The position numbers and the translations under genes were made by a program. The notes beneath the pieces are model-generated. The model was not told the origin of the DNA. It searched no databases and saw only the letters and a program-made list of their open reading frames with translations. A stretch of 20,161 nucleotides of DNA. It comes from a virus. Location: positions 1-20,161 of the IMG/VR virus record IMGVR_UViG_3300032029_000010, one strand, 5' to 3'. This document shows, one piece after another, positions 1,914-20,161 of the stretch (its first letter is position 1; each line of letters opens with the position of its first letter).

Positions 1914-3589
1914 TATGTCACCTCGTGGACAATGCTGGCCACGCGCTGGGCCGTTATGGTGCGGAAGGCCGGGATGGCCTGGATAACCTTCAGGCTAAGC
2001 GTCACATTGGTCAGGACGATCCCGTCCAGTGCGATCAGAAAAAAGCCCAGGTCGTCCAGAACAATGCCGTCCGTGACGGCCAGGAGGGCGGCGAGATCTC
2101 CGAAACTGTGCTTACCGGCCCGGAGCAAAACCGCAAGGGATGACAACTGCTGTCCCCAGGCGCACAGCCAGGCCGCAAGATCTTCCGTGTTCCACGCAGC
2201 CGCTTCCGCCATGCTCTTGAGATCGCCATAACCAGTGGCCCAGGTTTCAAGGCCGGCCTTCATGTCTTCAACAAGGGCCTGAAAGTAAGCGGCCAGGAAG
2301 GATTTCAGATCGTCATACCGGGTGCCCCAGGTCGTAAGATCCATGCCGGCATCTTCCATCCTTTCGTAAAAGGCCGAAAGAAAGCTCGCCAGATCCTCGA
2401 TGTTCCAGCCCGCGGCCTCCAGCTTCGCGGTCAGGTCATGAAGCTCAACGCCGTCATGAGCCCGAAGAAAAGAGGCGAGATCTTCCTGGCGACTATAATA
2501 TGCCGAGAGATCAAAGGAGGCATCCTGGAGAAGCGTCGCTCCGATCGCCCACGTGATAATATTATCCGACAACGCATAGTACGTTGCTTTGAGCCAGGCT
2601 GCCGATCTATCTATATCAGACAGTCTTGATTCGTCAACAATTCCATCGAGTGGTTCACTCGCATCTTCCGGTCCACGACAGCCGATGGATACACCTGTCC
2701 CGGCTGTTATAGACCCGGAGCCATTATACGTGTCCCTGTCCTTTGCTCCATCTACATAAATATCAATAACGCCATTATCGTAATTAGCCGCCGCATAGTG
2801 GTACCCAGACCTTACGCTCGTAGCCCCACTCAGGCTGACCGGACTCCCACCTATGAATGGAATGAATGTGATAACACTACTTCCTGCATCTACTCTAAAC
2901 TGCCATGATCTTTGAGCAGCGTCGGCACTAAGTAACGCCTCATACGAAGACCCACTATCTTCAACATTAAAAAAGCTTTCCAATGTAAGAGTTGATGTAG
3001 GTCTTGTAAGTGAATTTTCTATTACCCGGTCATCGGATCCGTCAAAATCCAAGGCTTTCCCAATTTGCCCATCCACTAAATCATCGGCGGTCATCGATCC
3101 CGCAGGAGTGGCATGATTGATATTGGACGTCGAGTCCTTGATGCATCCGGCTCCGCCAGACGGGTCTTGAGACATGTGCCAAACACCTACAAAGTCGGCA
3201 TCCCAGACTGCCTGGGCCGGGCTTTCCGTAGTCTCTCCAACATAGGTGTCATTATCGGGCTGGGAGGCATCGTAATATAAATACAGTACGGTCGTGGAGG
3301 CGGACGAAAGAGTTAAATCGGATTTGGACGCGAACAGTACTGCTTTCTCGTTTGCTTCATCCCACAGTTCTATCTCGACATACAGTTGCGTGGTGCCATC
3401 GTCTTTGGTGACGGCGATTTTTTTCGAGCTCGACCCCAACTCATCGAAAACGCAAGACACATCGGCGCTGTTTTGGCCCACTGAGGTGCCCAGGATAAGC
3501 GGCAGCGGGAAATGCGTGAGATCCGAATCGATATTCGTGTTATCGACAGTAATTTCTATGCGTTCTGCCCAATCGCCTAACCAACCCAT
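1913..3589 (-). CDS. DUF2341/LamG-like tail protein with amphipathic repeat tail
   Basis: This 558-residue protein is probably a tail fibre or receptor-binding component. Residues of about 8-110 resemble DUF2341 (RIEITVDNTNID, then LYLYYDAS). Residues of about 130-330 resemble a LamG/concanavalin-like domain (VGVWHMSQD, GKALDFDGSDD, IDIYVDGAKD, GIVDESRLSD), a fold that often binds glycans. From about residue 355 to 530 there is a degenerate repeat of about 28 residues built on EDLASFLxA-type units, rich in Leu, Ala and Trp. A GAGG Shine-Dalgarno precedes the ATG, and the upstream stop is 7 bp away. The domain calls are by eye; the receptor role is inference. Confidence 0.75.
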   Translation of the reverse strand: MGWLGDWAERIEITVDNTNIDSDLTHFPLPLILGTSVGQNSADVSCVFDELGSSSKKIAVTKDDGTTQLYVEIELWDEANEKAVLFASKSDLTLSSASTTVLYLYYDASQPDNDTYVGETTESPAQAVWDADFVGVWHMSQDPSGGAGCIKDSTSNINHATPAGSMTADDLVDGQIGKALDFDGSDDRVIENSLTRPTSTLTLESFFNVEDSGSSYEALLSADAAQRSWQFRVDAGSSVITFIPFIGGSPVSLSGATSVRSGYHYAAANYDNGVIDIYVDGAKDRDTYNGSGSITAGTGVSIGCRGPEDASEPLDGIVDESRLSDIDRSAAWLKATYYALSDNIITWAIGATLLQDASFDLSAYYSRQEDLASFLRAHDGVELHDLTAKLEAAGWNIEDLASFLSAFYERMEDAGMDLTTWGTRYDDLKSFLAAYFQALVEDMKAGLETWATGYGDLKSMAEAAAWNTEDLAAWLCAWGQQLSSLAVLLRAGKHSFGDLAALLAVTDGIVLDDLGFFLIALDGIVLTNVTLSLKVIQAIPAFRTITAQRVASIVHEVT

Positions 3590-7664: not shown

Positions 7665-7678
7665 TGGTATCTTTTTTC

Positions 7679-7745
7679 GCCACCAAGACACGAAGTCACT
7701 AAGTAACAATAATTAAAAACCTTGGTGCCTTTGTGCCTTCGTGGC
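7679..7745. repeat. Palindromic tandem-word repeat, family A copy 1
   Basis: The left arm reads as 8-nt words (CACCAAGA, CACGAAGT, CACTAAGT) and the right arm as their complements (CTTGGTGC, CTTTGTGC, CTTCGTGG) around an AT-rich loop. It fills the gap between the distal-tail candidate and the hub gene. Confidence 0.85.
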
Positions 7746-7751
7746 TATCCT

Positions 7752-8249
7752 CTAATCCCCTGCGACGGCTTCGAGGGAAAGCCCGCAATCCGCCACCCCC
7801 GGCAAAAGACTTGCCGTAACAATCAGGTTGATTTCATACGAATAGATTGCTTTTCCGTGCGCGGCCCAGAACAGGTTCCTCCGGTACCTGAACCCGCCCG
7901 GCCGTGCAAACCGAACGCGCCAGATATCATAGCCGTCCGTAAAGAAATACTCCCCGTCCACTGTTTCGTGGATGGTCCTGAGATCCGCTACGGTCTCCGC
8001 GCCCAGGGCATCGCTGTCGGAAAACGAGATCCTCTGATCCCCGTCCACAACACCGAAGTCCTGGATGACCACGCCGCCCAGGGTCGGTATCACGCTTCCC
8101 CGCCCGGTCTCCACGGCCATGAGGTCATAGTGGGCATCGCCCAGGATCGGCACCTGGTCCAAAACTACCAGGGTCTCCGGAGCAGGGTCCGCATTTGCCG
8201 GGTCGGTTGTAGGATCTATATCCGTGCTGTAAAAAGCAAAATCAGCCAT
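7752..8249 (-). CDS. Tail protein, possible distal-tail (Dit-like) component
   Basis: The 165-residue acidic protein lies in the slot between tape measure and hub, where siphophages encode the distal tail protein. Its pattern is beta-rich, with an N-terminal Pro/Asp/Thr-rich leader, a middle GSVIPTLGGVVIQDFG stretch and a C-terminal GKAIYSYEINLIVTASLL strand pair. The upstream region is a palindromic repeat, so the Shine-Dalgarno is poor. I do not recognise the family, and the Dit-like assignment is positional inference. A small tail adaptor is an equal alternative. Confidence 0.65.
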   Translation of the reverse strand: MADFAFYSTDIDPTTDPANADPAPETLVVLDQVPILGDAHYDLMAVETGRGSVIPTLGGVVIQDFGVVDGDQRISFSDSDALGAETVADLRTIHETVDGEYFFTDGYDIWRVRFARPGGFRYRRNLFWAAHGKAIYSYEINLIVTASLLPGVADCGLSLEAVAGD

Positions 8250-8251
8250 TT

Positions 8252-8346
8252 GTTAACCGTTCCGGGTTCAGGGTTCCCCGTTCAGGGTTGAAGGATGTCA
8301 ACTTTTGTCAACTTTGAAGCTCTCAAGTCTGAACCTTTGAACCTTA
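8252..8346. repeat. Palindromic tandem-word repeat, family C copy 1
   Basis: The left part is a run of 7-nt words (GTTCCGG, GTTCAGG, GTTCCCC, GTTCAGG). The right part has TCAACTTT-type and GAACCTTT-type words in 8-10-nt steps. It fills the whole gap between the Gly-rich gene and the Dit-like gene. Confidence 0.65.
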
Positions 8347-8348
8347 TC

Positions 8349-8522
8349 TCATTCCCGTCCTTGGCCGCCTCCCTGTCCGCCGCCCTGGCCTTGTCCCGGG
8401 CCGCCGTCCGGGCACGGCTGATCATTTGCGCCGCCCCTTTGCCCGCCGGGCATGCCTGTTCCGCCTCCCCGGCCGTCATGGGGCCGTGGTGCTCCACTGG
8501 GGTTTGTTTTTGTATCCGCCAT
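8349..8522 (-). CDS. Small Gly-rich protein downstream of tape measure
   Basis: The 57-residue protein is nearly half glycine, ending in a GQGQGGGQGGGQ run, with two prolines near its single Cys and no hydrophobic core. The ATG has a good Shine-Dalgarno (AAAAGGAG, 9 nt away), only 23 bp after the tape measure stop, which favours this frame. A second minus-strand frame covers 8497-8282 from a GTG without a ribosome site; it encodes an Ala/Arg-rich peptide that runs into the repeat and is judged less likely. Probably disordered. Function unknown; a tail linker or tape-measure accessory would fit the position. Confidence 0.55.
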   Translation of the reverse strand: MADTKTNPSGAPRPHDGRGGGTGMPGGQRGGANDQPCPDGGPGQGQGGGQGGGQGRE

Positions 8523-8545
8523 GATACTAGTCTCCTTTTCGTCGG

Positions 8546-11539
8546 TTAACGTTTCGACAATCCCATTTTAATCAGTTCTGCCTCGAACTCCTTGACCATC
8601 GCCCTGGTTACCTTCCTGTCTCCCATGACCATCAACGGCATCTCTGCGCCGCCCGCCTGAAAGCGTATGGTCATGGTCTCCCCGGACATGCCCGGCACAG
8701 AACCGCCCGCCTGAAACGCATATTGCGGGGAGGGCATCTCGGGCAGGGAGATGTTCGAGACCAGGCCTCCTATCCGGGCGCGTACCATATGGGACAAATC
8801 CAGTTTCATGGCGTTGAGCGCCTGGAACAGGCCCGCCCCGTATTTTCTGACCGCCTCCTTGCGGATCACGAACTCCCCGGCCTCCAGGAGCGCGCGTATC
8901 CGGTCGCCCCCGCCGTACCCGGCGAGCATGGATCCTGAAGCGAGCCCCGCAAGGCCGCCCGCCTTTTTTTCTTCGACCGTTTTGTGATGGGTAACCACAT
9001 ATATGTGTTTGATAGCCTTGGTACCAATAAACTTATTAATCGCATTCTGGGCCGCCTCAAGGCCGCTCAGCGTGATTTTTACGTTTGCCTCGCGCTGCTT
9101 TGCGATCTCGTCGAGCTGTTTCTTTATGCCGTCCGCCGTGGCCGTCCATTCGTCCCTGGCACTCGCAGCGGCATCCCGCTGCAGCGAATACAGCTCCTCG
9201 ACAAAATTCCCGACCTCGGTAACGCCGTTGATTGCCACCTGCTTCGTGTCTTCCAGCGAGCGGACCACGACGTCCTTGCCGCCCTCGCTCTTCTTGACTT
9301 CCGTGGCGAGATCGGCATACAAACCCTCCGCGTCTTTGGCCAGCTTTTCCGCAAGCTTGTAATCGCCCCTGGCCATCGCCTCCCTGGCCGCGTACAATTT
9401 CTCCTCGGCCTGGAGCTTTTTGTCGGCCCAGATCTCCGCGTCCTCCAGTCCCCTGCGGCCCAGCTCGCGGAGCTTGTCCTCGGTGGAAAGCCTGGCGTAC
9501 TTGATCTTGTCTTCCCAGGCGATCACCTGCTTTGCATAATCGGCCGCCTGTTTTTTGGCCTCCTCGTACGCCTTCTTGGCCTTTTTCTCGAACTCGTCGA
9601 GCTGCTCTGTCGTGGCCTCCACAGCCTTGACGGGCTTTTCCATCTCCCCTGCCGCGCCGGAGGCGGCCTCGCCGACCTTTTTAAAAGCCGCCTGGATCTC
9701 TTTGAGCTTGGCGTTGACCCCAATGAGTTCTTTCTGTGCCTCTTTCGCATCCTTGGTCGCGTTGCCGAGGCCGAATAGCGTCTTCTCGGCTGCCCGTGTC
9801 TCCAGCTTTGCCTTGAGCGCCGTGTAATATACCCTGGCCTCCGCCAGTTTCTTTTTGAAGTCCTCCAGGTCCTCCTGGGCCAGCTGCGTGATGTCGTCAG
9901 GGAGCTTCACGTCCTTGAATTCCTTAAACTTTCTCATGAGCCGGTCCGAGTTTTCCCTGAGCCGGTCCTGGGATTCCCTCATGGCCTTGTGCGCCTGGAT
10001 CGCCTTGTATGCTTCCGCTGTCAGGGTGGCCAGCTGGTAAGATGTGTACAATACAGCCGCTGCCAAACCCGCCTTCATCAGAACCCCGGTTACGGCGAAT
10101 TGTGCGTTCAAAGAGCCTACGGCTGCCTGGGCCGCACCGGCGTGAACAATGAGCCCCTTGAGTCCCGATACCATAGATCCCAGTCCCAATTTCCAGATGA
10201 TAAACGCGCCCGCTGCGCTCGCCAGCGTGGCCACGACTGACTTTGTCACCGGGTCCATCTCCTCAAACGAGTCGATCAGTTCCCGCACTCCCCTGGCCAG
10301 GGGCAGCAGCACCTTGGAGGCCAGGGCGCCCGCGGAGATCATCAGATCGTCTATCGCATTTCTGAAGAGCTTCATCTGGTTGGCCGGCGTGTCTTTCATT
10401 TTTTCGTTGGCCTCAGCCATCGCTCCGGCGGAGTCCGCCATCTTGTCCAGGGTTTTGGTGAGATCGTCGAAATTGTTGATCAGGGCCAGAACTCCGGTAC
10501 GCGCTTCAACGTCCGGAATAAGGAACCGCATTTGTTTTATGTCTTTATGTAGACCTTTTTGCCGGATCGCGTCCAGGGTCGGAATGAGGCCTTTCCAGGT
10601 GATCCCGAGCTCGTCGAACTTTTTCTTTGCCTCAGCCGTGGGAGCGGCCATCGCATTGATCGCGCCCTTGAGCGCGGTCATGGCCTGGGGCGTGCGGAGG
10701 GCGCCCTTGGTCATGGTCGCAATGGCGGCGGAAACATCCCGGAACTCCACACCTGCTGCCCTTGCCGTGGGCAGGACCTCGCCTATGGAATGGGCGAGCT
10801 GGGGAAACGTGGTGACGCCGAGCCTGACGGTTGTAAACAGGATATCGTAGACCTCTTCCAACTCGTCGATCGACTTGCCGTAGGCGTTGATCACCGCGAT
10901 CCCGGCGTTCGCGGCCGTCTTGGTATCGGTAACGCCACCGACCGCGGCCTTGGCGGATAGTGCTAAAACCCCGACCGATTTCTCCAGGGCCACTCCCGCT
11001 GAAAGAATATCGTACTGTGCGGCCGCGAGCTCCGTGGCGCTCTGGGGGATCTCCTTTGTCATTGCCCGGATCTCCTTGCCCAGGGAGGCGAACTGCTCCT
11101 TGCTCACGTCGATCAGGGTGTTGACCTCGGCCATGCGCTGGGAGAACTCGCTGTACCGGTTAAAGGATTTGATGACCGCGTACCCGGCCCCTGCCAGGGC
11201 GATCAGCCCGGTCTTTGCCTTGCCCAGCTCACCCGCCCAGTCGCCGGTCTCTTTGCGAAGCTCGGCGGTCTTTTGCTTGAGCTTTACCTTGGCCTGATAA
11301 AGCTCCGCGCTGGACAGCTTGCCCGATTTTTTGAGCGTGTCGTAGGAGCCCCGGAGTTTTGTAATCTCGTCCCGGATCTCCTTGTAGGGACGCACCCCCA
11401 GGGCCGATCTGGCCTCCATGACCTTCCGGGCCTCGGCCGCGGACTTTTTGGTCTTGTCCAGCTCGCTCCTGGTCTTGCGGAGCTCTTCCTTTGTCCGGTC
11501 TTTTGCCTCGACCGTTATTTTGACTTTGCGGTCCGTCAT
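8546..11539 (-). CDS. Tail tape measure protein (TP901 type)
   Basis: The protein sets tail length and passes through the tube during DNA entry. Its 997 residues begin with a charged coiled coil (1-105). A TP901-like core follows at about 110-330, with Q-S-A-T-E-L and a stretch ending in GALRTPQAMTALKGAINA. A hydrophobic, membrane-like zone lies at about 430-520, and a long coiled coil rich in Lys, Glu and Ala at about 530-850. The C-terminal motif GEFVIRKEAVRKYG at 888 is typical of tape measures. By the usual rule of about 0.15 nm per residue, the tail would be near 150 nm. The chaperone pair lies directly upstream. The start ATG has only a weak ribosome site, next to a palindrome. Confidence 0.93.
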   Translation of the reverse strand: MTDRKVKITVEAKDRTKEELRKTRSELDKTKKSAAEARKVMEARSALGVRPYKEIRDEITKLRGSYDTLKKSGKLSSAELYQAKVKLKQKTAELRKETGDWAGELGKAKTGLIALAGAGYAVIKSFNRYSEFSQRMAEVNTLIDVSKEQFASLGKEIRAMTKEIPQSATELAAAQYDILSAGVALEKSVGVLALSAKAAVGGVTDTKTAANAGIAVINAYGKSIDELEEVYDILFTTVRLGVTTFPQLAHSIGEVLPTARAAGVEFRDVSAAIATMTKGALRTPQAMTALKGAINAMAAPTAEAKKKFDELGITWKGLIPTLDAIRQKGLHKDIKQMRFLIPDVEARTGVLALINNFDDLTKTLDKMADSAGAMAEANEKMKDTPANQMKLFRNAIDDLMISAGALASKVLLPLARGVRELIDSFEEMDPVTKSVVATLASAAGAFIIWKLGLGSMVSGLKGLIVHAGAAQAAVGSLNAQFAVTGVLMKAGLAAAVLYTSYQLATLTAEAYKAIQAHKAMRESQDRLRENSDRLMRKFKEFKDVKLPDDITQLAQEDLEDFKKKLAEARVYYTALKAKLETRAAEKTLFGLGNATKDAKEAQKELIGVNAKLKEIQAAFKKVGEAASGAAGEMEKPVKAVEATTEQLDEFEKKAKKAYEEAKKQAADYAKQVIAWEDKIKYARLSTEDKLRELGRRGLEDAEIWADKKLQAEEKLYAAREAMARGDYKLAEKLAKDAEGLYADLATEVKKSEGGKDVVVRSLEDTKQVAINGVTEVGNFVEELYSLQRDAAASARDEWTATADGIKKQLDEIAKQREANVKITLSGLEAAQNAINKFIGTKAIKHIYVVTHHKTVEEKKAGGLAGLASGSMLAGYGGGDRIRALLEAGEFVIRKEAVRKYGAGLFQALNAMKLDLSHMVRARIGGLVSNISLPEMPSPQYAFQAGGSVPGMSGETMTIRFQAGGAEMPLMVMGDRKVTRAMVKEFEAELIKMGLSKR

Positions 11540-11552
11540 CGCTCACTTTTCC

Positions 11553-11637
11553 GCCACTAAGGCACAAAGGCACGAAGTTTAATTTTCAATTTTCACTTGT
11601 CAATTTTCAATTGTTTGTGTCTTAGTGACTTCGTGGC
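11553..11637. repeat. Composite palindromic repeat, family A copy 2 with a second repeat inside
   Basis: The outer arms are family A 8-nt words (CACTAAGG, CACAAAGG, CACGAAG and complements). The loop holds a different array of 7-nt words (AATTTTC, AATTTTC, ACTTGTC, AATTTTC). It lies between the chaperone second frame and the tape measure gene. Confidence 0.85.
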
Positions 11638-11638
11638 A

Positions 11639-11740
11639 TCATGGTTTATCTTGCGGAGGCTTGAGCCACCGGACGGCCTCCTCGATCGCGAGATTAAAAA
11701 AACTCCAGCCGTAGTCCCACGCCTGCGCGTGTCCCATCAT
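11639..11740 (-). CDS. Tail assembly chaperone, second frame (T-like)
   Basis: Read alone from ATG this frame encodes 33 residues (GHAQAWDYGWSFFNLAIEEA in the middle). It stays open upstream, across the end of the chaperone gene, in the -1 frame, exactly as the T extension of phage lambda G/GT does. The first ATG has no good ribosome site, so expression as a -1 fusion is favoured, with A-AAC-CCT at 11836-11830 as the candidate slip site. Its stop lies next to the repeat in front of the tape measure gene. T domains normally bind tube protein or tape measure. This is inferred by architecture and short-motif resemblance. Confidence 0.6.
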   Translation of the reverse strand: MMGHAQAWDYGWSFFNLAIEEAVRWLKPPQDKP

Positions 11741-11742
11741 GA

Positions 11743-12081
11743 TCAGCCGGCAGATTGCTCTTCTGATTTCTGCGCTGCCAGCGCCGCTCGCCCCACGTTT
11801 GCCAGCCTTTGCATCAGGCCGGCGAAAGTAGGGTTTATGCCTTCTACCTCGTCGATCATGGTCTCTATCTCGGACGGGGCATATTTGGCCAGTTCCTCGA
11901 CCGGCATCTCGAGGCTCATCGCGAGAGCGCTTGACGGAAGCCGGTCCGGGAACAGCATGTCGATATCGCTGATTTCCGTGTCCGTCCCCGCGGATTCGAG
12001 TATCTGCGCAATCTGTTTGACCGTGAGCTCACGGGCGGTAAATTTCTTATCGCCGATTTTAAACGGCTTTTCTTTTCTCAT
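11743..12081 (-). CDS. Tail assembly chaperone (G-like)
   Basis: The 112-residue acidic, helical protein sits between tail tube and tape measure, the fixed place of the G-type tail chaperone. It begins MRKEKPFKIGDKKF and has ARELTVKQIAQILES, similar to other phage chaperones that start with a short beta pair followed by helices. The start at 12081 is chosen for its AAAGGAGATCCCAACC ribosome site; an upstream in-frame GTG lies inside the family B palindrome and is rejected. Near the 3' end the -1 frame is open, allowing a G-T fusion. It would keep the tape measure soluble and recruit tube subunits. Confidence 0.8.
   Translation of the reverse strand: MRKEKPFKIGDKKFTARELTVKQIAQILESAGTDTEISDIDMLFPDRLPSSALAMSLEMPVEELAKYAPSEIETMIDEVEGINPTFAGLMQRLANVGRAALAAQKSEEQSAG
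11830..11836 (-). promoter_or_regulatory. Candidate -1 ribosomal frameshift heptamer
   Basis: In the chaperone frame the codons ATA AAC CCT contain A-AAC-CCT, which fits the X-XXY-YYZ pattern for tandem -1 slippage. After a slip, the ribosome reads TAC TTT CGC and continues without a stop into the T-like frame. It is not one of the best-known strong heptamers, so this is a candidate only. Confidence 0.45.
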
Positions 12082-12098
12082 GGTTGGGATCTCCTTTA

Positions 12099-12170
12099 GC
12101 CACGGATTCACACAGATAAACGCGGATTAAGAAAAATTAATATCTGCGTAAATCTGCGTAAATCCGTGGC
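12099..12170. repeat. Palindromic tandem-word repeat, family B
   Basis: Arms are 10-nt words: CACGGATTCA, CACAGATAAA, CGCGGATTAA on the left and TATCTGCGTA, AATCTGCGTA, AATCCGTGGC on the right. It lies between the tail tube and chaperone genes, and its left edge reaches the chaperone ribosome-site region. Confidence 0.85.
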
Positions 12171-12197
12171 CAAATATTATTGGCCCCGGAAGCGGGA

Positions 12198-13172
12198 TTA
12201 CATCGTCTCGACTTTGTAATACTCCTGGCCGCTGGCCTGATCGCTGTCCTTGAGCACTGTGCCCGTGACCGCGAGCACTGAGGCGCCTTCCCCGATCAAC
12301 GGGAACTCGCCGTTGAGCAAGATATTGACCTTGTGGAACGTCCATCTCTGGCGCACGCCGTTGTCGTCTTTATCGGAAACGAAGATCAGCTTGCGCTCCA
12401 CCGATCCCGCGGACATCCCCCAGATATAGCTGCGGTCCACGGCCTCGTAATCGTAAGAGATCACGTCCGTGTCGATGATGTCCCCGTCGCTGATCTTGCG
12501 GATATACCCGTAATCCGGGTCCAGGCTGTAATCCGTTCCCTGCACGCGGCGCGTCGTTCCGGCCGCATCGGTGACCACCACGTCCTCGAGGGTCTCGATA
12601 CCCGTGGGCGTGATGTAATTGGTGCCCTGGGTCTCATACACCTCCTCGCCCACCTGGAACGTTCCCACGATATTGACCAGCTCGATGTATCCGGCCGCCT
12701 TAAAGGCTATGTCGCCCGTGGCTGCCGAGGTGTCTCCCGTCACTGTGTCGCCCACCGCAAGCGCTCCGGTAATCGTGCCGGTCAGCTTGATGCTGAACAC
12801 GTTCAGCTTGCCCAGATCTATATACAGATCGTCTTCCAGGTCCACGTCCGTGCCGATCGCGTCCTGATACACATAGCTCGCGGCCTGGTTGTCGGTGTTA
12901 ATGTCCGAGCCGAGCAGGGTCATCTTCAGGTTCTCGTTCGTCATCTCCCGGAGCCCGAAGGTAAGCACCGCGTCCCGCTCCGTCTCCTTTTCGATGATGG
13001 TTGCCCTGGCCGCGTTCCGCGTGCTCTTGAGCTTTTCGATCGTGACCGTGAGGGCGAAATTGATATTCTCCAGCTCGCCCAGGTCATCGAACGAATCCTC
13101 GTCCACCTCGCCGGCGTATGCCCTGCCGGTGCCGTAATAGCGAATATTGTCCGCGCTTGATGCTAATGGCAT
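12198..13172 (-). CDS. Major tail tube protein (siphovirus type)
   Basis: The 324-residue protein should polymerise into the non-contractile tail tube. The N-terminal part (DDLGELENINFALTVTIEKL, residues about 28-48) and a following beta pattern resemble siphophage tube proteins, and it stands where tube genes stand, before the chaperone pair. Residues of about 130-190 form a Gly/Thr-rich beta insert (TGTITGALAVGDTVTG) that could be an extra surface domain. No sheath gene lies upstream. An AAAGGAGG ribosome site precedes the ATG. Tube identity rests on position plus N-terminal resemblance. Confidence 0.8.
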   Translation of the reverse strand: MPLASSADNIRYYGTGRAYAGEVDEDSFDDLGELENINFALTVTIEKLKSTRNAARATIIEKETERDAVLTFGLREMTNENLKMTLLGSDINTDNQAASYVYQDAIGTDVDLEDDLYIDLGKLNVFSIKLTGTITGALAVGDTVTGDTSAATGDIAFKAAGYIELVNIVGTFQVGEEVYETQGTNYITPTGIETLEDVVVTDAAGTTRRVQGTDYSLDPDYGYIRKISDGDIIDTDVISYDYEAVDRSYIWGMSAGSVERKLIFVSDKDDNGVRQRWTFHKVNILLNGEFPLIGEGASVLAVTGTVLKDSDQASGQEYYKVETM

Positions 13173-13190
13173 AATAAAACCTCCTTTTTT

Positions 13191-13247
13191 GCCACTAAGT
13201 CACAAAGTCACAAAAGATAAAACTTAGTGTCTTAGTGTCTTTGTGGC
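13191..13247. repeat. Palindromic tandem-word repeat, family A copy 3
   Basis: Left arm words are CACTAAGT, CACAAAGT, CACAAAAG; right arm words are CTTAGTGT, CTTAGTGT, CTTTGTGG. It fills the gap between the gp37-like and tail tube genes. Confidence 0.85.
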
Positions 13248-13250
13248 CTC

Positions 13251-13703
13251 CTATGTTTTAATTGTCTTGAACTCATACCGCGCCGCGTAAAAACACAGCC
13301 CCCTTTTAGGCGCCAGGTATAGCGGCGCAGCGGAGCGCAGGAGCATGACGCCTGAGCTGTGGATCTTTTGCCTGTGCAGCAGTCCCTCGGTCAGCTCCAG
13401 GATCTCATAGACTCCCATGCTCGTGGAGTCCCCACGCCTGGAGGCCTCCGTGCCCCGCAGGTTTTTATCCCCGACAAGGAGCATGATCCCGATATCCTCT
13501 TCGTCGTAGCGGTCCTTGTGCGTGAGCGCCAGGCCCGTGGCCACCACGTAAACACAGGGAAAAAGCAGCGTCATCCTGGCCAGCTCCTCAATGTCCTCCG
13601 CCTCGGCCTGGCCCGCATAAAGCTCCAGGGTCTTGACGCCTTGATCTTTCAGCGGCTCCAGAGTAACGAGAGTAACCTGCTCCAGCTCCTCGAACTCGTG
13701 CAT
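13251..13703 (-). CDS. Mu gp37-like protein (DUF1834)
   Basis: The 150-residue protein matches the Mu gp37 family in size and position (after gp36, before the tail genes). It has a KTLELYAGQAEAEDIEELAR segment, hydrophobic LFPCVYVVATG, and a later GVYEILELTEGLL helix. Members probably act at the head-tail junction or as tail terminators. The ATG overlaps the stop of the small basic gene as TAATG, so translation is coupled. The stop lies just before a family A palindrome. Confidence 0.8.
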   Translation of the reverse strand: MHEFEELEQVTLVTLEPLKDQGVKTLELYAGQAEAEDIEELARMTLLFPCVYVVATGLALTHKDRYDEEDIGIMLLVGDKNLRGTEASRRGDSTSMGVYEILELTEGLLHRQKIHSSGVMLLRSAAPLYLAPKRGLCFYAARYEFKTIKT

Positions 13704-13849
13704 TACTTAGCTCCCTTGATAACCTTCACGGCGAACCACAGCCGCTGCCTGAGCGGCAGGCGCCCGATCTGCCCGACCATCGCCATAAACCGTTTATCCG
13801 CCTCCTTGCGGGCCGCCCGCCGGATCTTTTTGTGGAGCCTCCCGCTCAT
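13703..13849 (-). CDS. 48-residue basic protein between gp36- and gp37-like genes
   Basis: A short gene begins MSGRLHKKIRRAARKEADKR and ends in FAVKVIKGAK. Both ends are TAATG overlaps with neighbours, so the three genes form one coupled block; this is the main evidence that it is real. It is strongly basic, with an Arg/Lys-rich N-terminal helix and a more hydrophobic second half. No family is recognised. A small virion-assembly or nucleic-acid-binding role is possible, though only composition points that way. Confidence 0.75.
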   Translation of the reverse strand: MSGRLHKKIRRAARKEADKRFMAMVGQIGRLPLRQRLWFAVKVIKGAK

Positions 13850-14286
13850 TAAAGCCCGCTCATCTTGTCGCGATCGAAGATCCTCTTATTCGATGAAATA
13901 TTAACCGTATCCGGCGTGTTGGACGGCGCCGGCGTTGCAGCGCCCAGCCTGATCTTTCCTTCCCCGACCTTTTCCAGGAAACGGATCGCCTCCTTGTGCC
14001 TGTCCTTGCGTGTCTCGGGCGCGGCGTCCCCGCGCCTGGAGAAGAGATTATAGATGGCGATATCCACGCTGACCTGCCGGATCTTATCCGGTACCGGCGA
14101 AAGAGGAATCGTATATCTGCCCTGGCAGTACGCGTCTATGGTAGCGTCCGCGTCCTCGATCGCCTTGGTTACCTTGTCCTCGTCCACCGCGCCTGCGCCT
14201 GTGTCATCCGTCAACTGGATAAGAATAGCCTCATCGATCTGGTCCAGGATGTCGTTATGTGTCTCGTCTTGCGCGCAATAGGCCAT
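13849..14286 (-). CDS. Mu gp36-like protein (DUF1320)
   Basis: The 145-residue protein matches the Mu gp36 family: a helical N-terminus, the phrase DADATIDAYCQGRYTIPL (residues about 46-63) and then a PDKIRQVSVDIAIYNLFSRR helix. Family members are head-tail connector proteins. It starts two bases after the stop of the gp35-like gene and ends in TAATG with the small basic gene. A poorly conserved C-terminal tail (about 115-145) carries no motif. Confidence 0.88.
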   Translation of the reverse strand: MAYCAQDETHNDILDQIDEAILIQLTDDTGAGAVDEDKVTKAIEDADATIDAYCQGRYTIPLSPVPDKIRQVSVDIAIYNLFSRRGDAAPETRKDRHKEAIRFLEKVGEGKIRLGAATPAPSNTPDTVNISSNKRIFDRDKMSGL

Positions 14287-14287
14287 G

Positions 14288-14668
14288 TTATTCCGTGTCC
14301 GACTGCTCGCTCATCTTTTCCGCGAGGAGTTGCTGCAGCTCTTCTTTTTTGGCCTTGGGCGGAAACTCGACTCCCATCTCTTCCAGCCGCTCTTTTATCT
14401 CCCGAACTGTCAGGTCGGGCTGCTCCCCGTCCTCCGGAACTTCAGCGGAGGAGGACTCCTCCGTGCCCTCGATCTGCCCTTCACCCTGCTCCCCGCCCGC
14501 CATAGCTTCAGCGACGGCGGGAACGATCTCCACCGTCAGTTTCGGCTCCGCCTCCAGAACCTTCACTTGCTCCGGAGTGAACGTATCATCCGGGTACTCG
14601 GTCGTCCCTTTGGGATGGGCGACCCTGCAGCGCCGGAAGTTATGCTGCTTGCTCGTTATTCGAATCAT
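14288..14668 (-). CDS. Mu gp35/HI1506-like protein with HeH-type C-terminus
   Basis: The 126-residue protein begins ITSKQHNFRRCRVAHPKGTT, close to HI1506/gp35-type proteins of Mu-like prophages. An acidic linker (residues about 55-85) separates this from a C-terminal helix-extension-helix-like motif (LTVREIKERLEEMGVEF, then a KKEELQQLLAEKM helix). The ribosome site GGAGGTCTACC precedes the ATG. It stands between the capsid and gp36-like genes, as in Mu relatives. The precise role is unknown; head assembly is likely. Confidence 0.8.
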   Translation of the reverse strand: MIRITSKQHNFRRCRVAHPKGTTEYPDDTFTPEQVKVLEAEPKLTVEIVPAVAEAMAGGEQGEGQIEGTEESSSAEVPEDGEQPDLTVREIKERLEEMGVEFPPKAKKEELQQLLAEKMSEQSDTE

Positions 14669-14682
14669 GGTAGACCTCCGTT

Positions 14683-14755
14683 GTTAGGTTCCCTGTTCAA
14701 CGTTCCGGGTTCAGGGTTAACTCTTGAACCCCTGAACCCTGAACTTCTTAACCTT
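14683..14755. repeat. Palindromic tandem-word repeat, family C copy 2
   Basis: A 7-nt word array (GTTCCCT, GTTCAAC, GTTCCGG, GTTCAGG) is followed by complementary words (TTGAACC, CCTGAAC, CCTGAAC). It lies between the capsid gene and the gp35-like gene. Confidence 0.85.
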
Positions 14756-14774
14756 ATATTTTTATCCGCGTGGT

Positions 14775-15656
14775 CTATGCGAGCCAGGGTACCAGCACCG
14801 GCTCAACCGTGTTGTACCAGGGGTTGGACGCGCCGGCATCGTTGCGCTCATTGACTATGAGCGTCCTTGCCGCTGACTCGTTGGTCGGGCCGTACACCAG
14901 GTGGCTCGGGCTTATGCCCAGCTTGGTAACCTCATCTTCTTTGGTATACGCCATCATGGCTGCGCGGGCCGCCGCATAATTGGCGGCATTCAGAGTGTCT
15001 TTAGAGCCGTAGGCGATCTGCCAGAGCCCGTAGCCCACATTTTTCCGGTCATCTACCCCATAGCGGAATTTTTTCCGCAGGAACACATTCTCGTCATCCA
15101 TCTTATCCTGCGCAACGAATTCCGGCGTTTTCCGGACCTGGAGAATAATGGGTTTGATCGCCTTGCGGAGATCCAGAAGGAACCAGGGATCGCCCCCACC
15201 GCCGCCGTCGTTGGATGCCGATCCGTCGCCCACCGGATGATCGCCATCGAAGAAATACTGCCCATCATAGCAGTCTGTGTCGAAGCCGGCAGCGAGCAGC
15301 GCCCACACGAGAATATCCGGGTGGGCCTTGGCCTCCTGGGCGAGGCCCTGGATCATGGGCGTATACACGCCGACCTGATCATCCGAGATATCGTCGCGAT
15401 CCACCTCGATCGTGGCTTCATAACTCTTGTTGACGATCTCGTAGTGGAACGCGGAGAGGTCCTTGATGACCCGGTCCCCGACCCACTCCCTCATGGTGGG
15501 ATAATCGCCCAGCCACTTGTAATCGACGCTGCGGCCGCCGCTGGGCACGTGCATTGCGACCAGGGGCCACATGGATTCGGCCTGAGCTAATGCCTCGTTG
15601 AAAATCGTCGAAAAGCTCTTATAAATGCCTTCCAGATTTGCTTGATTAATAATCAT
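14775..15656 (-). CDS. Major capsid protein (Mu gpT family)
   Basis: The protein forms the icosahedral shell. Its 293 residues match the Mu gpT family in length and order of motifs: N-terminal INQANLEGIYKSFSTIFNEA, YKWLGDYPTMREWVGDRVI near residue 47, VDRDDISDDQVGVYTPMI near 83, and a C-terminal NPWYNT. A GGGAGGATTAAATC ribosome site supports the start. A Gly-rich loop (SNDGGGGGDPW) lies near residue 150. Neighbours are the decoration-like protein upstream and the gp35-like protein downstream. Confidence 0.95.
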   Translation of the reverse strand: MIINQANLEGIYKSFSTIFNEALAQAESMWPLVAMHVPSGGRSVDYKWLGDYPTMREWVGDRVIKDLSAFHYEIVNKSYEATIEVDRDDISDDQVGVYTPMIQGLAQEAKAHPDILVWALLAAGFDTDCYDGQYFFDGDHPVGDGSASNDGGGGGDPWFLLDLRKAIKPIILQVRKTPEFVAQDKMDDENVFLRKKFRYGVDDRKNVGYGLWQIAYGSKDTLNAANYAAARAAMMAYTKEDEVTKLGISPSHLVYGPTNESAARTLIVNERNDAGASNPWYNTVEPVLVPWLA

Positions 15657-15677
15657 GATTTAATCCTCCCTTTAGTT

Positions 15678-15801
15678 TGTTGTCTGTTATCCGCCCGGCC
15701 GTCGCAGCAATAGCTGCTATGGCGCAGTCGGCTTGTCCGCCTCTGTCGGGTTATCCGTTCACCGTTGTCCGTCGGAAAACGGTGAACGGTCAACGGTGAA
15801 C
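15678..15801. repeat. Composite palindromic repeat, family D
   Basis: Two elements lie side by side. 15698-15732 is an imperfect palindrome around AGCAATAGCTGCT. 15755-15801 has 7-nt words (GGTGAAC, GGTCAAC, GGTGAAC) facing complementary CCGTTCACCGTTG. They fill the 150-bp gap between the decoration-like and capsid genes. Confidence 0.8.
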
Positions 15802-15810
15802 ATTCCTTGT

Positions 15811-16854
15811 TTACGATGCCAGCAGCTTCGACGTATATTCCAGCCACGATCCCTGCATGTAGAGCGCATCACCTGCGTGCGCGCTCGGGGTCAGCTCGAT
15901 GGTAACCGTCTGCGCCCCTGCCGGGATATCCGTGGCCGCGATGGTGATTATGGTCTCTCCGAATGCCTGGGCAATCGTAGCCGTCACGTCTTCCACCTTG
16001 GTGTCCCCATCCATAAAATAGGCATCCGATGCCAGGGTCACCGTATTGGCATCAGCGTCTTTCTTGGTGAGCAGGTGCAGGACCAGGTCTTTCGTGACGT
16101 CCATATCCGGCGGCAGCGGCACCTGGTTGACGATCGCCACCACGCTGGTAGCCACCCATGCCCACCTGAGTGCACTGTCCGTATCGCCGTCGGCCATATC
16201 CAGGATCGGATCGGTCGCAGGCCCTCCGAACGTGACCGTGTTCGATCCGTCGCTGAGCATCCAGGATGTCAGTGGAATCGGGATGAATTTCTGTTCGCTG
16301 ATCAGGTGCTGATAGATCTCCTGGAGTGCCGCCTCCATCTCTTCCTGGGCCGTGAAGGTGCCCGCGTCCGCGATGCTGATGGCCGATGCCGCATGGGCAG
16401 CGGTGCCGTCGGCGATATGGGCAGCCGCATCGGACTGGCGAATGGCCGGCTCGATGTCGATCCAGGCGTGGGTTGTGTCGATATATGCCGCGATAATGCC
16501 GGCGAAAATATCATGGGTTGTGTTGCCCACTATGTCTACCGTCTGGTCGTCCACCAGGTACACGCTGTCTCCCACGTTGGCGATGGTAATTGCGGTATCC
16601 AGGATGGCCTTTACCAGGCCGCGCCTGCGCAGGACCACGGACTCGTCGCCGTCATCACCGTCTGAGTTATCCACGTGCGCAAGGGCCACGCCCATGAAAA
16701 GGAGCCCCGTGGCATCGTCTCCCGGTGTGGCATAGCCGTCGGCCCGCACGCATACGAAGCTGCCTGCGAAAATCTCGACCGCCCGGTATAGCTCAAAGGG
16801 CACCTCCACCCCTTCGGTGTATTCCGTCTTTTTGTCTGCACTTAATGCTGTCAT
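15811..16854 (-). CDS. Capsid decoration-like protein with extra C-terminal domain
   Basis: The 347-residue protein lies directly before the capsid gene, the usual place of the decoration protein. Residues of about 25-115 resemble DUF2190-like decoration folds (FAGSFVCVRADGYATPG, then AILDTAITIANVGDSVYLVD). A linker of about 50 residues rich in Ala, His and Asp (AAAHIADGTAAHAASAIS) leads to a beta-rich C-terminal domain (about 195-347). A GGAGGTATAAAAA ribosome site precedes the ATG. Typical DUF2190 proteins are near 100-130 residues, so the C-terminal half is an addition that may project from the capsid. The decoration call is moderate. Confidence 0.7.
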   Translation of the reverse strand: MTALSADKKTEYTEGVEVPFELYRAVEIFAGSFVCVRADGYATPGDDATGLLFMGVALAHVDNSDGDDGDESVVLRRRGLVKAILDTAITIANVGDSVYLVDDQTVDIVGNTTHDIFAGIIAAYIDTTHAWIDIEPAIRQSDAAAHIADGTAAHAASAISIADAGTFTAQEEMEAALQEIYQHLISEQKFIPIPLTSWMLSDGSNTVTFGGPATDPILDMADGDTDSALRWAWVATSVVAIVNQVPLPPDMDVTKDLVLHLLTKKDADANTVTLASDAYFMDGDTKVEDVTATIAQAFGETIITIAATDIPAGAQTVTIELTPSAHAGDALYMQGSWLEYTSKLLAS

Positions 16855-16876
16855 TTTTTATACCTCCATGTTTTTG

Positions 16877-16950
16877 GTTGAATCGTTAAGTCGTTGAGTC
16901 GTTGAGTTGTTAAACCACTCAACTAGTCGACCACTCGACTCTTTGACTGT
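16877..16950. repeat. Palindromic tandem-word repeat, family E
   Basis: Left words TCGTTAAG, TCGTTGAG, TCGTTGAG, TTGTTAAA face 8-nt right words CCACTCAA, CTAGTCGA, CCACTCGA, CTCTTTGA. The array runs up to the stop codon of the protease/scaffold gene. Confidence 0.8.
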
Positions 16951-17607
16951 TCACTGCACCGTATTTTTAGGCCCGTATTTTTTCCAGCTGTCCTCAGACA
17001 CGCCCACCATCTTGTTGATGGACAGTTGCACCTGGTCAAGGATGGCGTCATCCGCCTTGATCTCTTTTTTGGCCAGCTTGTCCACCGGGACCTCGCTTCC
17101 GACCGCCTTCGAAAGCACGACTTTTTTGAATTGCTCCGGGTCGTTGAGCGCCATGTCGTTGCCCCATTTTTCCAGCTGATCTTTTGTGATCTTGCCTTCC
17201 AGCACTGCCTGTCCTACGAGGTCCTCCTTTTTTATCGCGGCAATATCGGCGCTCAATTTAGCGACTTGTCCGCTCAAATCATCCGTGGCGGCGTGGCTTG
17301 CTTTAAGGCCCCTAATGGTTGTGATTACGTCCTCCCGGGCAGCGTCTTCTTTGAGCCCGAGGGCCTCGATCACCTCCTTGGCCACCACCTCTATTTTCTT
17401 GCCCTCGACCTGCTTTTTCAGGTTCTTGTTTTCGGCCACGACCGCTTTCGCGGCCTCAGCCACCTTATCCTGGCCGGCGTCATCAGCCAGCTCGAAAAGC
17501 TCTATCATGTCTTTGTTCTTGGCCACGACCGCCTCGGCGGCCTCGACTACCTTGTCCTCGCCGGCGTCGTCGGCCAGCCCTAAAAGTTTTTTAAGTTTGT
17601 CTAACAT
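16951..17607 (-). CDS. Nested scaffold protein (Mu Z analogue), internal start
   Basis: Met 248 of the protease (ATG at 17607) is preceded by AAAGGAGG and a 5-nt spacer, as strong a ribosome site as any here. Translation from it gives the 218-residue C-terminal scaffold alone. Mu makes its scaffold Z from the 3' part of gene I, and lambda makes Nu3 from C, in the same way. The product is rich in Lys, Glu and Ala and begins MLDKLKKLLGLADDAGEDK. Two near-identical 29-residue repeats lie at its N-terminus. Expression from this site is inferred. Confidence 0.75.
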   Translation of the reverse strand: MLDKLKKLLGLADDAGEDKVVEAAEAVVAKNKDMIELFELADDAGQDKVAEAAKAVVAENKNLKKQVEGKKIEVVAKEVIEALGLKEDAAREDVITTIRGLKASHAATDDLSGQVAKLSADIAAIKKEDLVGQAVLEGKITKDQLEKWGNDMALNDPEQFKKVVLSKAVGSEVPVDKLAKKEIKADDAILDQVQLSINKMVGVSEDSWKKYGPKNTVQ

Positions 17608-18348
17608 GTTTGCCTCCTTTCGGAATTCTCCGATGTTGAATTTTTTACGGAATTTATCTAATCGCCCGTTGATGATCGAGCGTTCCTCGGGGTTGTATTG
17701 CGCCTGGTTATCCTCCTGGCCCCAGTAACCGGCAGCCGCCCGCGTCTGGGCCGCGTCGGGACACGGGTAGCGGTAATTGACCGGGTCCAGCCACTCATCG
17801 TCGGGCACGTGCTCCCACTCGGAAGGCTTGGTTACATGCCCTCCCTCCTTGATGCCGATCCTGTATTTTCTCGAGCGGGCCTCCCTGGCCTCCCGCGCCT
17901 CCTCGAGGCTCATCTTGGCCATGATCGGCCGCAGGTTATTCAGCTTCGGGAAATTGGTCAGGGCCACGTTTTCGATCTTGATAATCTTCCGGCCGTTTTC
18001 AGAGACCCAGAATACCGGCGAAAAATAACGGTATTCTCGGTTCTCCAGGTATTCCTTTGCCTGCCTGGTCCATTCCACAACCACCCAGAACCCTTCCTTG
18101 CCGCGATTGATGAATCTCTTGATCCATCCTGCAGCCGGGGCCTTGACGCCCTGGAGGGTCTGGTGCTCGTAATCGATGACCATGTCGTTTCCCCGGCGCT
18201 CGAAATCGGCGATAATGGCGTCCATCGATTCGTCGTCCACAAATGCATCGTCCTCGCCCTCGATCCCGATCTTCCCGTACGGAAAAAGCTGGAATTCTTC
18301 CGGGGCGCCCTCGATGCTCTTGAGTACATATAAAAGTTTCAATCCCAT
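16951..18348 (-). CDS. Mu I-like prohead protease with C-terminal scaffold
   Basis: The N-terminal part (about 1-145) is a Mu I-type prohead protease, with IDYEHQ at 58-63 (likely catalytic His 62), PAAGWI near 72 and a FSPVFWVSENG segment. A middle segment (about 150-240; GIKEGGHVTKPSEWEHVPDD, then WLDPVNYRYPCPDA) resembles DUF6582-type inserts. The C-terminal 218 residues are charged and coiled-coil-like, as in a scaffold. The start is set at MGLKL behind GGAGGAAGCGAT; it overlaps the stop of the upstream gene. The protease should clear the scaffold after prohead assembly, and the capsid gene lies downstream. Confidence 0.9.
   Translation of the reverse strand: MGLKLLYVLKSIEGAPEEFQLFPYGKIGIEGEDDAFVDDESMDAIIADFERRGNDMVIDYEHQTLQGVKAPAAGWIKRFINRGKEGFWVVVEWTRQAKEYLENREYRYFSPVFWVSENGRKIIKIENVALTNFPKLNNLRPIMAKMSLEEAREAREARSRKYRIGIKEGGHVTKPSEWEHVPDDEWLDPVNYRYPCPDAAQTRAAAGYWGQEDNQAQYNPEERSIINGRLDKFRKKFNIGEFRKEANMLDKLKKLLGLADDAGEDKVVEAAEAVVAKNKDMIELFELADDAGQDKVAEAAKAVVAENKNLKKQVEGKKIEVVAKEVIEALGLKEDAAREDVITTIRGLKASHAATDDLSGQVAKLSADIAAIKKEDLVGQAVLEGKITKDQLEKWGNDMALNDPEQFKKVVLSKAVGSEVPVDKLAKKEIKADDAILDQVQLSINKMVGVSEDSWKKYGPKNTVQ
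17413..17586 (-). repeat. Two tandem 87-bp coding repeats in the scaffold
   Basis: Units 17586-17500 and 17499-17413 encode LADDAGEDKVVEAAEAVVAK and LADDAGQDKVAEAAKAVVAE in register. A third, weaker unit follows (LGLKEDAAREDVITTIRGL). This points to growth of the scaffold by in-frame duplication. Confidence 0.75.
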
Positions 18349-19013
18349 ATCGCTTCCTCCATGCGATCGCGCAGCCGTGAATCGTATTTTCCAGGATCCG
18401 GCTTCCATTCCTGCACTGCCGGGTTATACCGGAACCCCGGGTCCGGCTGCAGATCCGGGACCTGCGTTTCCTCTTTCAGCCCTTCCTCCTCCATCTCCCG
18501 GGCGGAAATAGAATGTACGACACATCTGCACCTAAAACCTGCAGGCGGAAACCACGTATTCCAGAAGGGATGATCGTGGCGGTATATCTTGCCGTCGTTC
18601 GCCAGGTGGGTCGGCCTGGTGTGCGTGTCGTTCACCGCGTCGTATTCCCAGTACGGCCTGCGGTCCGCGACCGCCTTCATCTGTTTGTGCCTGCCCACGT
18701 TATAAGCGGTCTGGTTATTGGTCCTGAAGATATTGTCCAGCCGGTAGGGCGTCATGCCTTGCCAGCCCCGCCGGGCCATGATCTCATCGATCCCCTCGCG
18801 GAACTCAAAGAACGTCCCTCCTTTCTCGAGGGCCTTCAGGACCTCCCCGTGCAGGTCTTGCAGCAGGTCGGCAGAGGCAATGCGAGACACCGTAAACGCC
18901 AGGCTGTTTGCATACGCACCCACCTCCGCCACCAGAACCTCGTATTCCGCGGCGGTCATCGGGATCTTATCCCGAAAAAATTCCACCGCCTCGCTAAACG
19001 CCATTCCTTTCAT
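18339..19013 (-). CDS. Mu F/gp30-like minor head protein (SPP1 gp7 family)
   Basis: The protein is a minor virion component placed near the portal and possibly ejected with DNA. The C-terminal half has the family signature: YDAVNDTHTRPTHLANDGKI, then PFWNTWFPPAGFRCRC, a pattern of His, Asp and Cys residues seen in Phage_Mu_F proteins. The start is placed at ATG 19013 (MKGMAF, 224 residues), with AGGAGA upstream; a longer frame from a GTG at 19034 begins inside the family A palindrome. It is short compared with Mu F. The stop overlaps the start of the protease gene. Confidence 0.9.
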   Translation of the reverse strand: MKGMAFSEAVEFFRDKIPMTAAEYEVLVAEVGAYANSLAFTVSRIASADLLQDLHGEVLKALEKGGTFFEFREGIDEIMARRGWQGMTPYRLDNIFRTNNQTAYNVGRHKQMKAVADRRPYWEYDAVNDTHTRPTHLANDGKIYRHDHPFWNTWFPPAGFRCRCVVHSISAREMEEEGLKEETQVPDLQPDPGFRYNPAVQEWKPDPGKYDSRLRDRMEEAIWD

Positions 19014-19029
19014 TGTTTCAGCTTCTCCT

Positions 19030-19095
19030 GCCACTAAGGCACAAAGGCACGAAGGAAAAATAATTATAAACTTTGTGTCTTGGTGTCTTTGTGGC
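19030..19095. repeat. Palindromic tandem-word repeat, family A copy 4
   Basis: Left words CACTAAGG, CACAAAGG, CACGAAGG and right words CTTTGTGT, CTTGGTGT, CTTTGTGG. It fills the gap between the G-like and F-like genes. Confidence 0.85.
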
Positions 19096-19100
19096 TATCT

Positions 19101-19646
19101 TCATGCCCACGCCCCCGCGATAAAATCTGCTACCGAACCATTGAGATATTCCCAGTCCGCATCTTCCGCGTACATGTACGGCCGCGCCGGGATCTCAACG
19201 GATTTTTTGAGGATAAAGAGCGGCACGATATCCTCGCCCCTCTTCTGAAAGATGATTCCCTTGGCCACAAAGGTGTCCGCAAAGTCCGCGGCCCGCAGCG
19301 GCACGCGCTTATCCGCAGGCCCGCCGGGAAACGGGATGGTCAGGAACTTCTTTTTTTTCGGCCTGATCGTCCCGCCGTAATGGTGTATCGCGGCATAATC
19401 CACCTCGCCGGGGCCGCCGCCGGCGGATATCTCCCCCGTATCGGCCATCTCCTCGTGGGTCAGGCTGCCCTTGAGCCTGCTCGTTCTCTCCTTGAGCGCC
19501 GGACCGGACAGCCGTTTCGATATCTTTCTGACCATGCGCTCGCCGAAATCCGCCAGGGGCTGCGTGAGATCCCGCGCCCTGTCGCCGGTTTCATCCACGG
19601 CCTTGATAACCTTCTCCTCGCCCCCAATGCGTATGGTCAGTTCCAT
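19101..19646 (-). CDS. Mu G-like virion morphogenesis protein (tail completion)
   Basis: The 181-residue protein belongs to the phage virion morphogenesis family (Phage_tail_S type), which finishes the tail-head joint. Motifs seen are DFGERMVRKISKRL near residue 33, YAAIHHYGGTIRPKKKKFL at about 84-102 and IPARPYMY near 152. Its place beside portal and F matches Mu-like genomes, although here it precedes F. A short AAGG ribosome site precedes the ATG. Palindromes flank it on both sides. Confidence 0.88.
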   Translation of the reverse strand: MELTIRIGGEEKVIKAVDETGDRARDLTQPLADFGERMVRKISKRLSGPALKERTSRLKGSLTHEEMADTGEISAGGGPGEVDYAAIHHYGGTIRPKKKKFLTIPFPGGPADKRVPLRAADFADTFVAKGIIFQKRGEDIVPLFILKKSVEIPARPYMYAEDADWEYLNGSVADFIAGAWA

Positions 19647-19664
19647 GTTTTGCCTTTTTCTCTT

Positions 19665-19730
19665 GCCACCAAGTCACGAAGACACTAAGAAAATACCTAC
19701 AAAGACTTTGTGTCTTGGTGTCTTTGTGGC
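19665..19730. repeat. Palindromic tandem-word repeat, family A copy 5
   Basis: Left words CACCAAGT, CACGAAGA, CACTAAGA and right words CTTTGTGT, CTTGGTGT, CTTTGTGG. The right arm overlaps the portal gene and encodes its last residues. Confidence 0.85.
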
Positions 19731-20161
19731 CTCTTATTTCTGGGTTTTGCCGCATCCGCCGCGCCTGCCAGTGCCGCGGTAACCAGGGCGTCGCGTACCA
19801 ATATTTCCAAATCCGCCGGGTCCAGATCCGCGTACACGTCAAATATCCGGTCGCGCAATTCCTCCAGGCTCGAGCTGGATTCGATCAGTTTCCGGACCGG
19901 GCCGTCTATCCCTTTCCATGCCTCGGCCGCGAGAGTCAGGGAGTCGTCCGCGAGCTCCTCCAGTTCCTGCTGCTCCGCGTCAAAAACAGGCCCAGGATCG
20001 TCTTTTGCTGTGAGGCGCGTATGATTAGACGCCTTTGCCCCTGTTTTCGCAGACTGGGCGGGGTTTGTCCGCTTCATGGCCATCTGGCCGGGCGTCACGG
20101 GCTGCAAAATCGTCTGTTCTTTCTCCGGCAGGGGGATCCCGAACCGCTCGCTCACGTGCTC
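19697..20161 (-). CDS. Mu gp29-like portal protein (DUF935), C-terminal part
   Basis: Only the last 154 codons and the stop are in the window; the frame runs off the edge, and the GTG at 20155 is an internal Val, preceded by E-H. The text SERFGIPLPEKEQ followed by a helical end (SSLEELRDRIFDVYADLD, then LEILVRDALVTAALAGAADA) is typical of DUF935 portal proteins, which form the DNA gate of the head. The last ten residues (PQRHQDTKSL) are encoded by a family A repeat and look unlike the family's usual end. Confidence 0.88.
   Translation of the reverse strand, partial: EHVSERFGIPLPEKEQTILQPVTPGQMAMKRTNPAQSAKTGAKASNHTRLTAKDDPGPVFDAEQQELEELADDSLTLAAEAWKGIDGPVRKLIESSSSLEELRDRIFDVYADLDPADLEILVRDALVTAALAGAADAAKPRNKRPQRHQDTKSL

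Follow-up and report, generated by a model that had tools for sequence, protein, structure and literature searches.

What are the palindromes built from tandem arrays of short words that sit in the gaps of a Mu-like phage operon, and how did they come to lie there? The window, meaning the whole stretch of DNA analysed here, spans an entire IMG/VR record (20,161 bases) and carries Mu-like phage head and tail genes on the minus strand. The initial annotation, made from the letters alone, had noted nine such palindromes in its gaps, and a detector that requires an ungapped palindrome together with a 6–12 nt tandem array within an arm returns exactly the same nine, all between genes (Table 1), and no tandem-word palindrome in dinucleotide shuffles of the window (n = 25); it supersedes an earlier k-mer count detector that was too weak. 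Outside the gene set used lie 500 of the 556 palindrome bases, in a region (7600–19800) whose non-gene share is only 7.5%, and the remaining bases, within genes, belong mostly to the family A copy at 19665–19730, which supplies the C-terminal residues and the stop codon of ORF 19697–20155. RNA folding z-scores of the palindromes range from −2.5 to −11.2. A tenth gap, 8250–8345, holds only a degenerate C-type array. The arms of family A are mosaic within the window: 11553–11637 and 19030–19095 have the same left arm, and 19030–19095 and 19665–19730 the same right arm. As a separate observation, the protease/scaffold gene contains an 87-bp tandem duplication (1.9 copies, 81% match) at 17426–17586.

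Table 1 Word-array features in the gaps of the window (positions are those of the window)
Feature	Position	Strand	Context or basis
Family A palindrome, NCACNAAG (8-nt word) three times per arm	7679–7745	.	between tail gene 5055–7676 and ORF 7752–8249
Degenerate family C-type array, GGTTCA/TGAACC words	8259–8345	.	gap before 7752–8249; below detector threshold
Family A palindrome, AATTTTC array nested in loop	11553–11637	.	detector
Family B palindrome, 10-nt word around CGGATTNACRCA	12095–12174	.	upstream of ORF 11743–12111
Family A palindrome	13191–13247	.	upstream of major tail protein gene 12198–13172
Family C palindrome, 7-nt GGTTCAN words	about 14687–14755, core 14702–14744	.	detector
Family D palindrome, 7-nt GTTCACC words	about 15745–15805, core 15750–15794	.	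upstream of major capsid gene 14775–15656
Family E palindrome, 8-nt GTTGAGTN words	about 16876–16950, core 16889–16935	.	detector
Family A palindrome	19030–19095	.	arms shared with other window copies
Family A palindrome	19665–19730	.	AAGAG at both flanks

Our favoured answer, to which we assign a probability of about 0.7, is that all nine derive, as MITE-like copies without a gene, from mobile elements residing in the chromosomes of Desulfobacterota hosts, and that they have repeatedly entered the phage. The initial annotation had raised the possibility of non-autonomous mobile palindromes, and this reading is supported by the turnover of gap contents among related phages, in which orthologous gaps are empty or differently filled, by gene-bearing versions with the same words, and by internal-deletion copies and 8-bp target duplications in host genomes. 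The MITE criterion of inverted terminal repeats without a transposase gene is met.

Turnover is observed directly in related phages (L002, L005 and L010–L017, with mostly 82–93% DNA shared with the window over the operon, the genes that flank the compared gaps being mostly 85–93% identical). At ten homologous gaps the relatives carry a diverged palindrome of the same family, a palindrome of another family or an empty site, and because the same gaps contain different palindromes or none, their contents must turn over. The gap of 7679–7745 is empty in L005 and L014 and holds a nested A[C]A arrangement in L010. Empty sites in relatives, whose comparison the initial annotation had suggested, include 11539–11660, which measures 18–22 nt without a palindrome in L002, L005, L011, L012 and L014–L017, and which in L010 contains the window's family A arms with a nested C-type array. 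At 12090–12192, the site of family B in the window, AGCTATGAG words are found in L002 and CCCTTTTTCAAAGG words in L011 and L014, and only 4 nt without an element remain in L010, L016 and L017. Five different families occupy gap 13172–13260 over the set, the window's family A copy being replaced by four others in relatives, and the palindrome at 19030–19095 is missing in L010–L015 and L017, where the genes overlap. L010 also carries one composite, A arms around C words, in two gaps and in opposite orientation, with the outer arms unchanged from the window. Such a series in closely related viruses makes insertion, nesting and loss directly comparable. Apart from the palindromes, the Mu gpT-like capsid protein (window 14775–15656) has its last two segments in swapped order relative to L008, L009, L010, L014 and L016, with the look of a circular permutation when read from the translations.

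The same comparison bears on the test by which the palindromes might have been exposed as old phage parts, namely the same repeats at the same gaps in related phages of unrelated hosts. That test came out in the opposite direction: close relatives share the gaps and not their contents, and 40 Mu-like phages of beta- and gammaproteobacteria have mostly short gaps without word palindromes. Strong palindromes of 7–10 nt words are largely restricted to phages of Desulfobacterota-type hosts (173 loci), and INPHARED holds no DNA match to window 12060–13260.

Host genomes contain versions of these palindromes that enclose a gene. Two gene families were candidates for company with repeats of this kind, GxxExxY (TIGR04256) and the four-helix-bundle 23S rRNA intervening-sequence protein, IVP (TIGR02436). 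When tested, most genes of both families in Desulfobacterota and related genomes prove to lie inside tandem-word palindromes, and Pfam assigns the enclosed genes to PF13366 PDDEXK_3 (GxxExxY) and PF05635 23S_rRNA_IVP (IVP). An inverted-repeat score between upstream and downstream flanks above 15, a threshold never exceeded by shifted control intervals of the same loci, is reached by 28 of 40 GxxExxY genes and 36 of 49 IVP genes (17/24 and 19/25 in the two sets), compared with 0/21 ParE control genes. The median score is 18.75 for GxxExxY (n = 40) and 19.0 and 18.0 for the IVP sets, against about 9 for mispaired flanks, and as the flank tests are symmetric they are unaffected by locus orientation. 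GxxExxY proteins keep the invariant residues D63, E73-x-K75 and Q87 of the PDDEXK family; an AlphaFold model built from two sequences reached a pLDDT of only 50 and was set aside as a basis for fold comparison. At locus L199, the only one located in 23S rRNA among the first gene loci compared, an IVP element with word-array arms lies inside the rRNA, an identification that rests on our reading of the flanks. Two further observations concern IVP elements: L195 and L197 have the same flanks in two genomes, apparently inside one protein-coding gene, and the arms of L404 contain several word families nested in each other. No gene-bearing copy was found in phages of the window's group, and one query of the viral collection gave none. 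An alignment-based search of the 2.9 million contigs of that collection yielded two GxxExxY genes, which is a lower bound because the search patterns were selective; judged by eye, both viral genes (L485 and L486, around 2980–3357) lie between word-like inverted arrays.

Words of the window recur in host genomes, a search of the host for each family being one of the checks that the initial annotation had proposed. Family A words flank a GxxExxY gene in L245, and family C words flank IVP genes in L210, L504 and L505. For family B the link is thinner, resting on similar arms around GxxExxY genes and on three genomes. Family D words are present in genomes G075, G037 and G111 and family E words in G111 and L503, with no gene-bearing copy of either observed directly. 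Across 118 Desulfobacterota genomes, GxxExxY is present in 11/11 genomes with A words, against 42/118 overall (P = 4.5e-6), and in 3/3 with B words (P = 0.04); IVP is present in 17/18 genomes with C words, against 69/118 overall (P = 4e-4), and in 8/8 with D words (P = 0.011). Phylogeny is left out of account in these tests, most of the genomes are MAGs, and nearly the whole sample comes from a single phylum. GxxExxY is likewise over-represented among genomes with C words (14/18), so that co-occurrence is partly a genome effect and not fully gene-specific. The density of the palindromes in a host can be high: contig C2 of G075 carries 47 in 372 kb, 89% of them outside the ORFs of at least 150 aa that cover 84% of the contig, and its words include the window's A and D as well as the AGCTGAC-type and CCCTTTTTCAAAGG words of the relatives.

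Genome G069 provides the step from gene-bearing element to gene-less hairpin. Its full element, L389, has the order arm–gene–arm with a GxxExxY gene, and the short copies L383, L385, L387 and L390 still have the two arms, roughly 35 nt from the beginning of the ORF and a vestige of its end; L384, L388, L391 and L386 have other deletions. The short family A copies of this genome are internal deletions of the GxxExxY element and satisfy the MITE criterion. One family A copy, in L386, interrupts a GxxExxY gene and is flanked by a duplication of 7 bp (GCGAACT), and the uninterrupted form of the gene it hit is present at L389 in the same genome.

Host copies of A and C type also share their outer ends, GTWAC[TC]RYTCA, and 8-bp target duplications. 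Ends of the GTWAC type bound 12 palindromes in four genomes, and 9 of the 12 have 8-bp flanking duplications at 7–8/8 matches, compared with 0/65 other motif pairs (P = 1.4e-9), thereby meeting for A- and C-type host copies the MITE criterion of a fixed-length target duplication. Since these 12 include family A copies, the C-word MITE L435 and the IVP-bearing L505, the two gene classes have the same ends and the same duplication length. The initial description of the families as unrelated thus stands only in part: it fails for the A type (GxxExxY) and the C type (IVP), whose outer ends agree where ends are visible. Around most single-copy gene-bearing elements our search for target duplications gave no clear signal, probably because the ends are unknown or the insertions old; the full copy L245 matches at only 3/8. 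When 392 kb of G075 were scanned for other elements that end in GTWA and have duplications of 8 bp, two candidates and no recognised transposon emerged. The phage copies of the window lack GTAAC ends and clear 8-bp duplications, and what duplications they have are at most 5 nt and ambiguous by our reading of the sequence (AAGAG at 19665–19730 and ATGAA at 19030–19095). That they arose in the same way as the host deletion copies is an inference. Degenerate positions in family A pair less often between the arms than chance predicts, at 16% against 32% (z = −5.6 over 61 distinct arm pairs from L283–L350 and L351–L400), a z-score that is optimistic because the copies are related, and pairing proceeds in steps of 3 bp with mismatches in between. 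A natural reading of this pattern is selection against perfect palindromes.

As the host copies show, a full element has one small gene enclosed by inverted tandem-word arms. The gene encodes either a PD-(D/E)XK nuclease of the GxxExxY type (PF13366), with word families resembling A and B, or a four-helix-bundle IVP (PF05635), with families resembling C and, probably, D and E. When the gene is lost by internal deletion, the arms and a short loop are left. In the mechanism that we propose, such copies insert between genes, where a hairpin is tolerated and may provide a new stop codon, later to be replaced or nested over time. The moving itself would be done in trans by an IS66-like transposase, while the encoded proteins would assist or simply be carried along. 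IS66 elements have ends that start GTAAGCG and produce 8-bp duplications (PMC11946415), and the inverted ends starting GTAA and 8-bp duplications of the host copies are similar enough to suggest this proposal. However, the host word palindromes start GTAAC or GTTAC and not GTAAGCG, the elements carry no IS66 genes, and the window copies lack GTAA-type ends. That a transposase works in trans on the GTAAC...GTTAC ends is inferred from these ends and duplications alone, and no such enzyme has been identified.

A different mover is conceivable within the same identification of the palindromes, as the disagreement concerns mechanism only: GxxExxY would itself cut target or cruciform DNA, IVP would have an equivalent role, and no outside transposase would be needed. 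One small gene per element, the invariant nuclease residues and the strict presence of GxxExxY in genomes with A words agree with this, but elements with two unrelated proteins have their outer ends and the 8-bp duplication in common, which fits better with one shared mover. To our knowledge IVP has no recognised catalytic site, which also counts against it. We regard self-movement as unlikely, if a serious contender. An RNA route, in which the hairpin is cut from transcripts by RNase III like the 23S intervening sequence (IVS) and reverse transcribed into new sites, draws on the orientation of the genes, IVP sharing the direction of both flanking genes in 39 cases and opposing both in 0, and GxxExxY in 26 and 3 (match strand taken into account), as well as on the position of L199 and on the excision of the Coxiella IVS by RNase III (PMC4990558). 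Yet gene-less copies with gene remnants occur in both orientations, in small numbers, so the bias of the genes can be read as survival of copies expressed by read-through, and the fixed ends and 8-bp duplications are what a DNA transposase typically produces; this route seems to us very improbable.

The remaining alternatives dispute mobility itself. Were the palindromes regulatory hairpins of the phage, serving late-transcript termination or mRNA processing and stability between head and tail genes, at fixed places with drifting sequence, one could understand why all of them fold well, why no comparable relative leaves the gaps at the capsid, decoration, protease and major tail genes empty, and why the pre-capsid gap has a median of 93 nt in the Desulfobacterota-type set versus 15 in beta- and gammaproteobacterial relatives. 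Such a role does not explain up to five unrelated word families at one gap, nor the empty gaps and overlapping genes elsewhere, nor the same words filling host chromosomes near other genes and enclosing small mobile-looking genes, and we consider it improbable. Slippage during replication, together with template switching, could also make palindromes locally out of short repeats, and such an origin would suit arms that are tandem arrays of short words differing between copies and mosaically common to several copies of the window. The slippage or repair product that the initial annotation had offered as an alternative is not supported, however: the exact target duplications, the insertion into a sequenced gene and the recurrence of one internal deletion in several copies at unlinked sites speak against it, and we give it scarcely any credence.

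The mobile-palindrome reading places these elements beside several known systems without merging them with any. Like MITEs they are short and gene-less, with inverted ends, target duplications and an origin by internal deletion of a longer element, but here tandem-word arrays make up most of the inverted ends, and in the full element the gene codes for a nuclease or a four-helix-bundle protein and not for a recognised transposase. In REPIN/RAYT systems the linked gene is flanked by inverted repeats, as in the word palindromes. The enclosed genes here, however, are PF13366 (PDDEXK_3) or PF05635 (IVP) and not the Y1 transposase of RAYTs, and a linked Y1 (REP-associated tyrosine) transposase is absent among them by Pfam, distant host genes being outside the scope of this comparison. 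As small intergenic hairpins dispersed in bacterial genomes, the palindromes also resemble REPINs themselves (PMC3116915). In gene content they resemble the 23S rRNA IVS, whose origin and function were still called unclear in 2016 and whose 5′ arm contains tandem heptamers in Coxiella (PMC4990558): a PF05635 gene within an inverted-repeat stem is what the host IVP loci present, and L199 is such an insert in 23S rRNA itself, with word arrays as arms. Known IVS are described in rRNA, whereas the design seen here is spread over intergenic sites and phages, and the window copies lack an IVP gene and lie between genes of a phage operon and not in 23S rRNA.

What is new is the joining of tandem-word palindromes, GxxExxY genes and 23S-type IVP genes as one kind of element, with ends and target duplications defined only in copies where they are readable. 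No earlier description of word palindromes with either gene appeared in the literature searched, from which subscription papers were largely excluded, and GxxExxY proteins are barely mentioned there. The finding accounts for a class of intergenic hairpins of uncultured bacteria and ties the 23S IVS and GxxExxY to one mobile-palindrome design. It is possible, at somewhat less than even odds in our judgement, that these elements form an unrecognised mobile superfamily with interchangeable word arms, GTAAC-type ends and a nuclease or IVP gene, to which the 23S IVS also belong. If so, the superfamily would shed gene-less hairpins over chromosomes and phages, and the finding would bear on the nature of the 23S rRNA intervening sequences, which would be copies that landed in rRNA.
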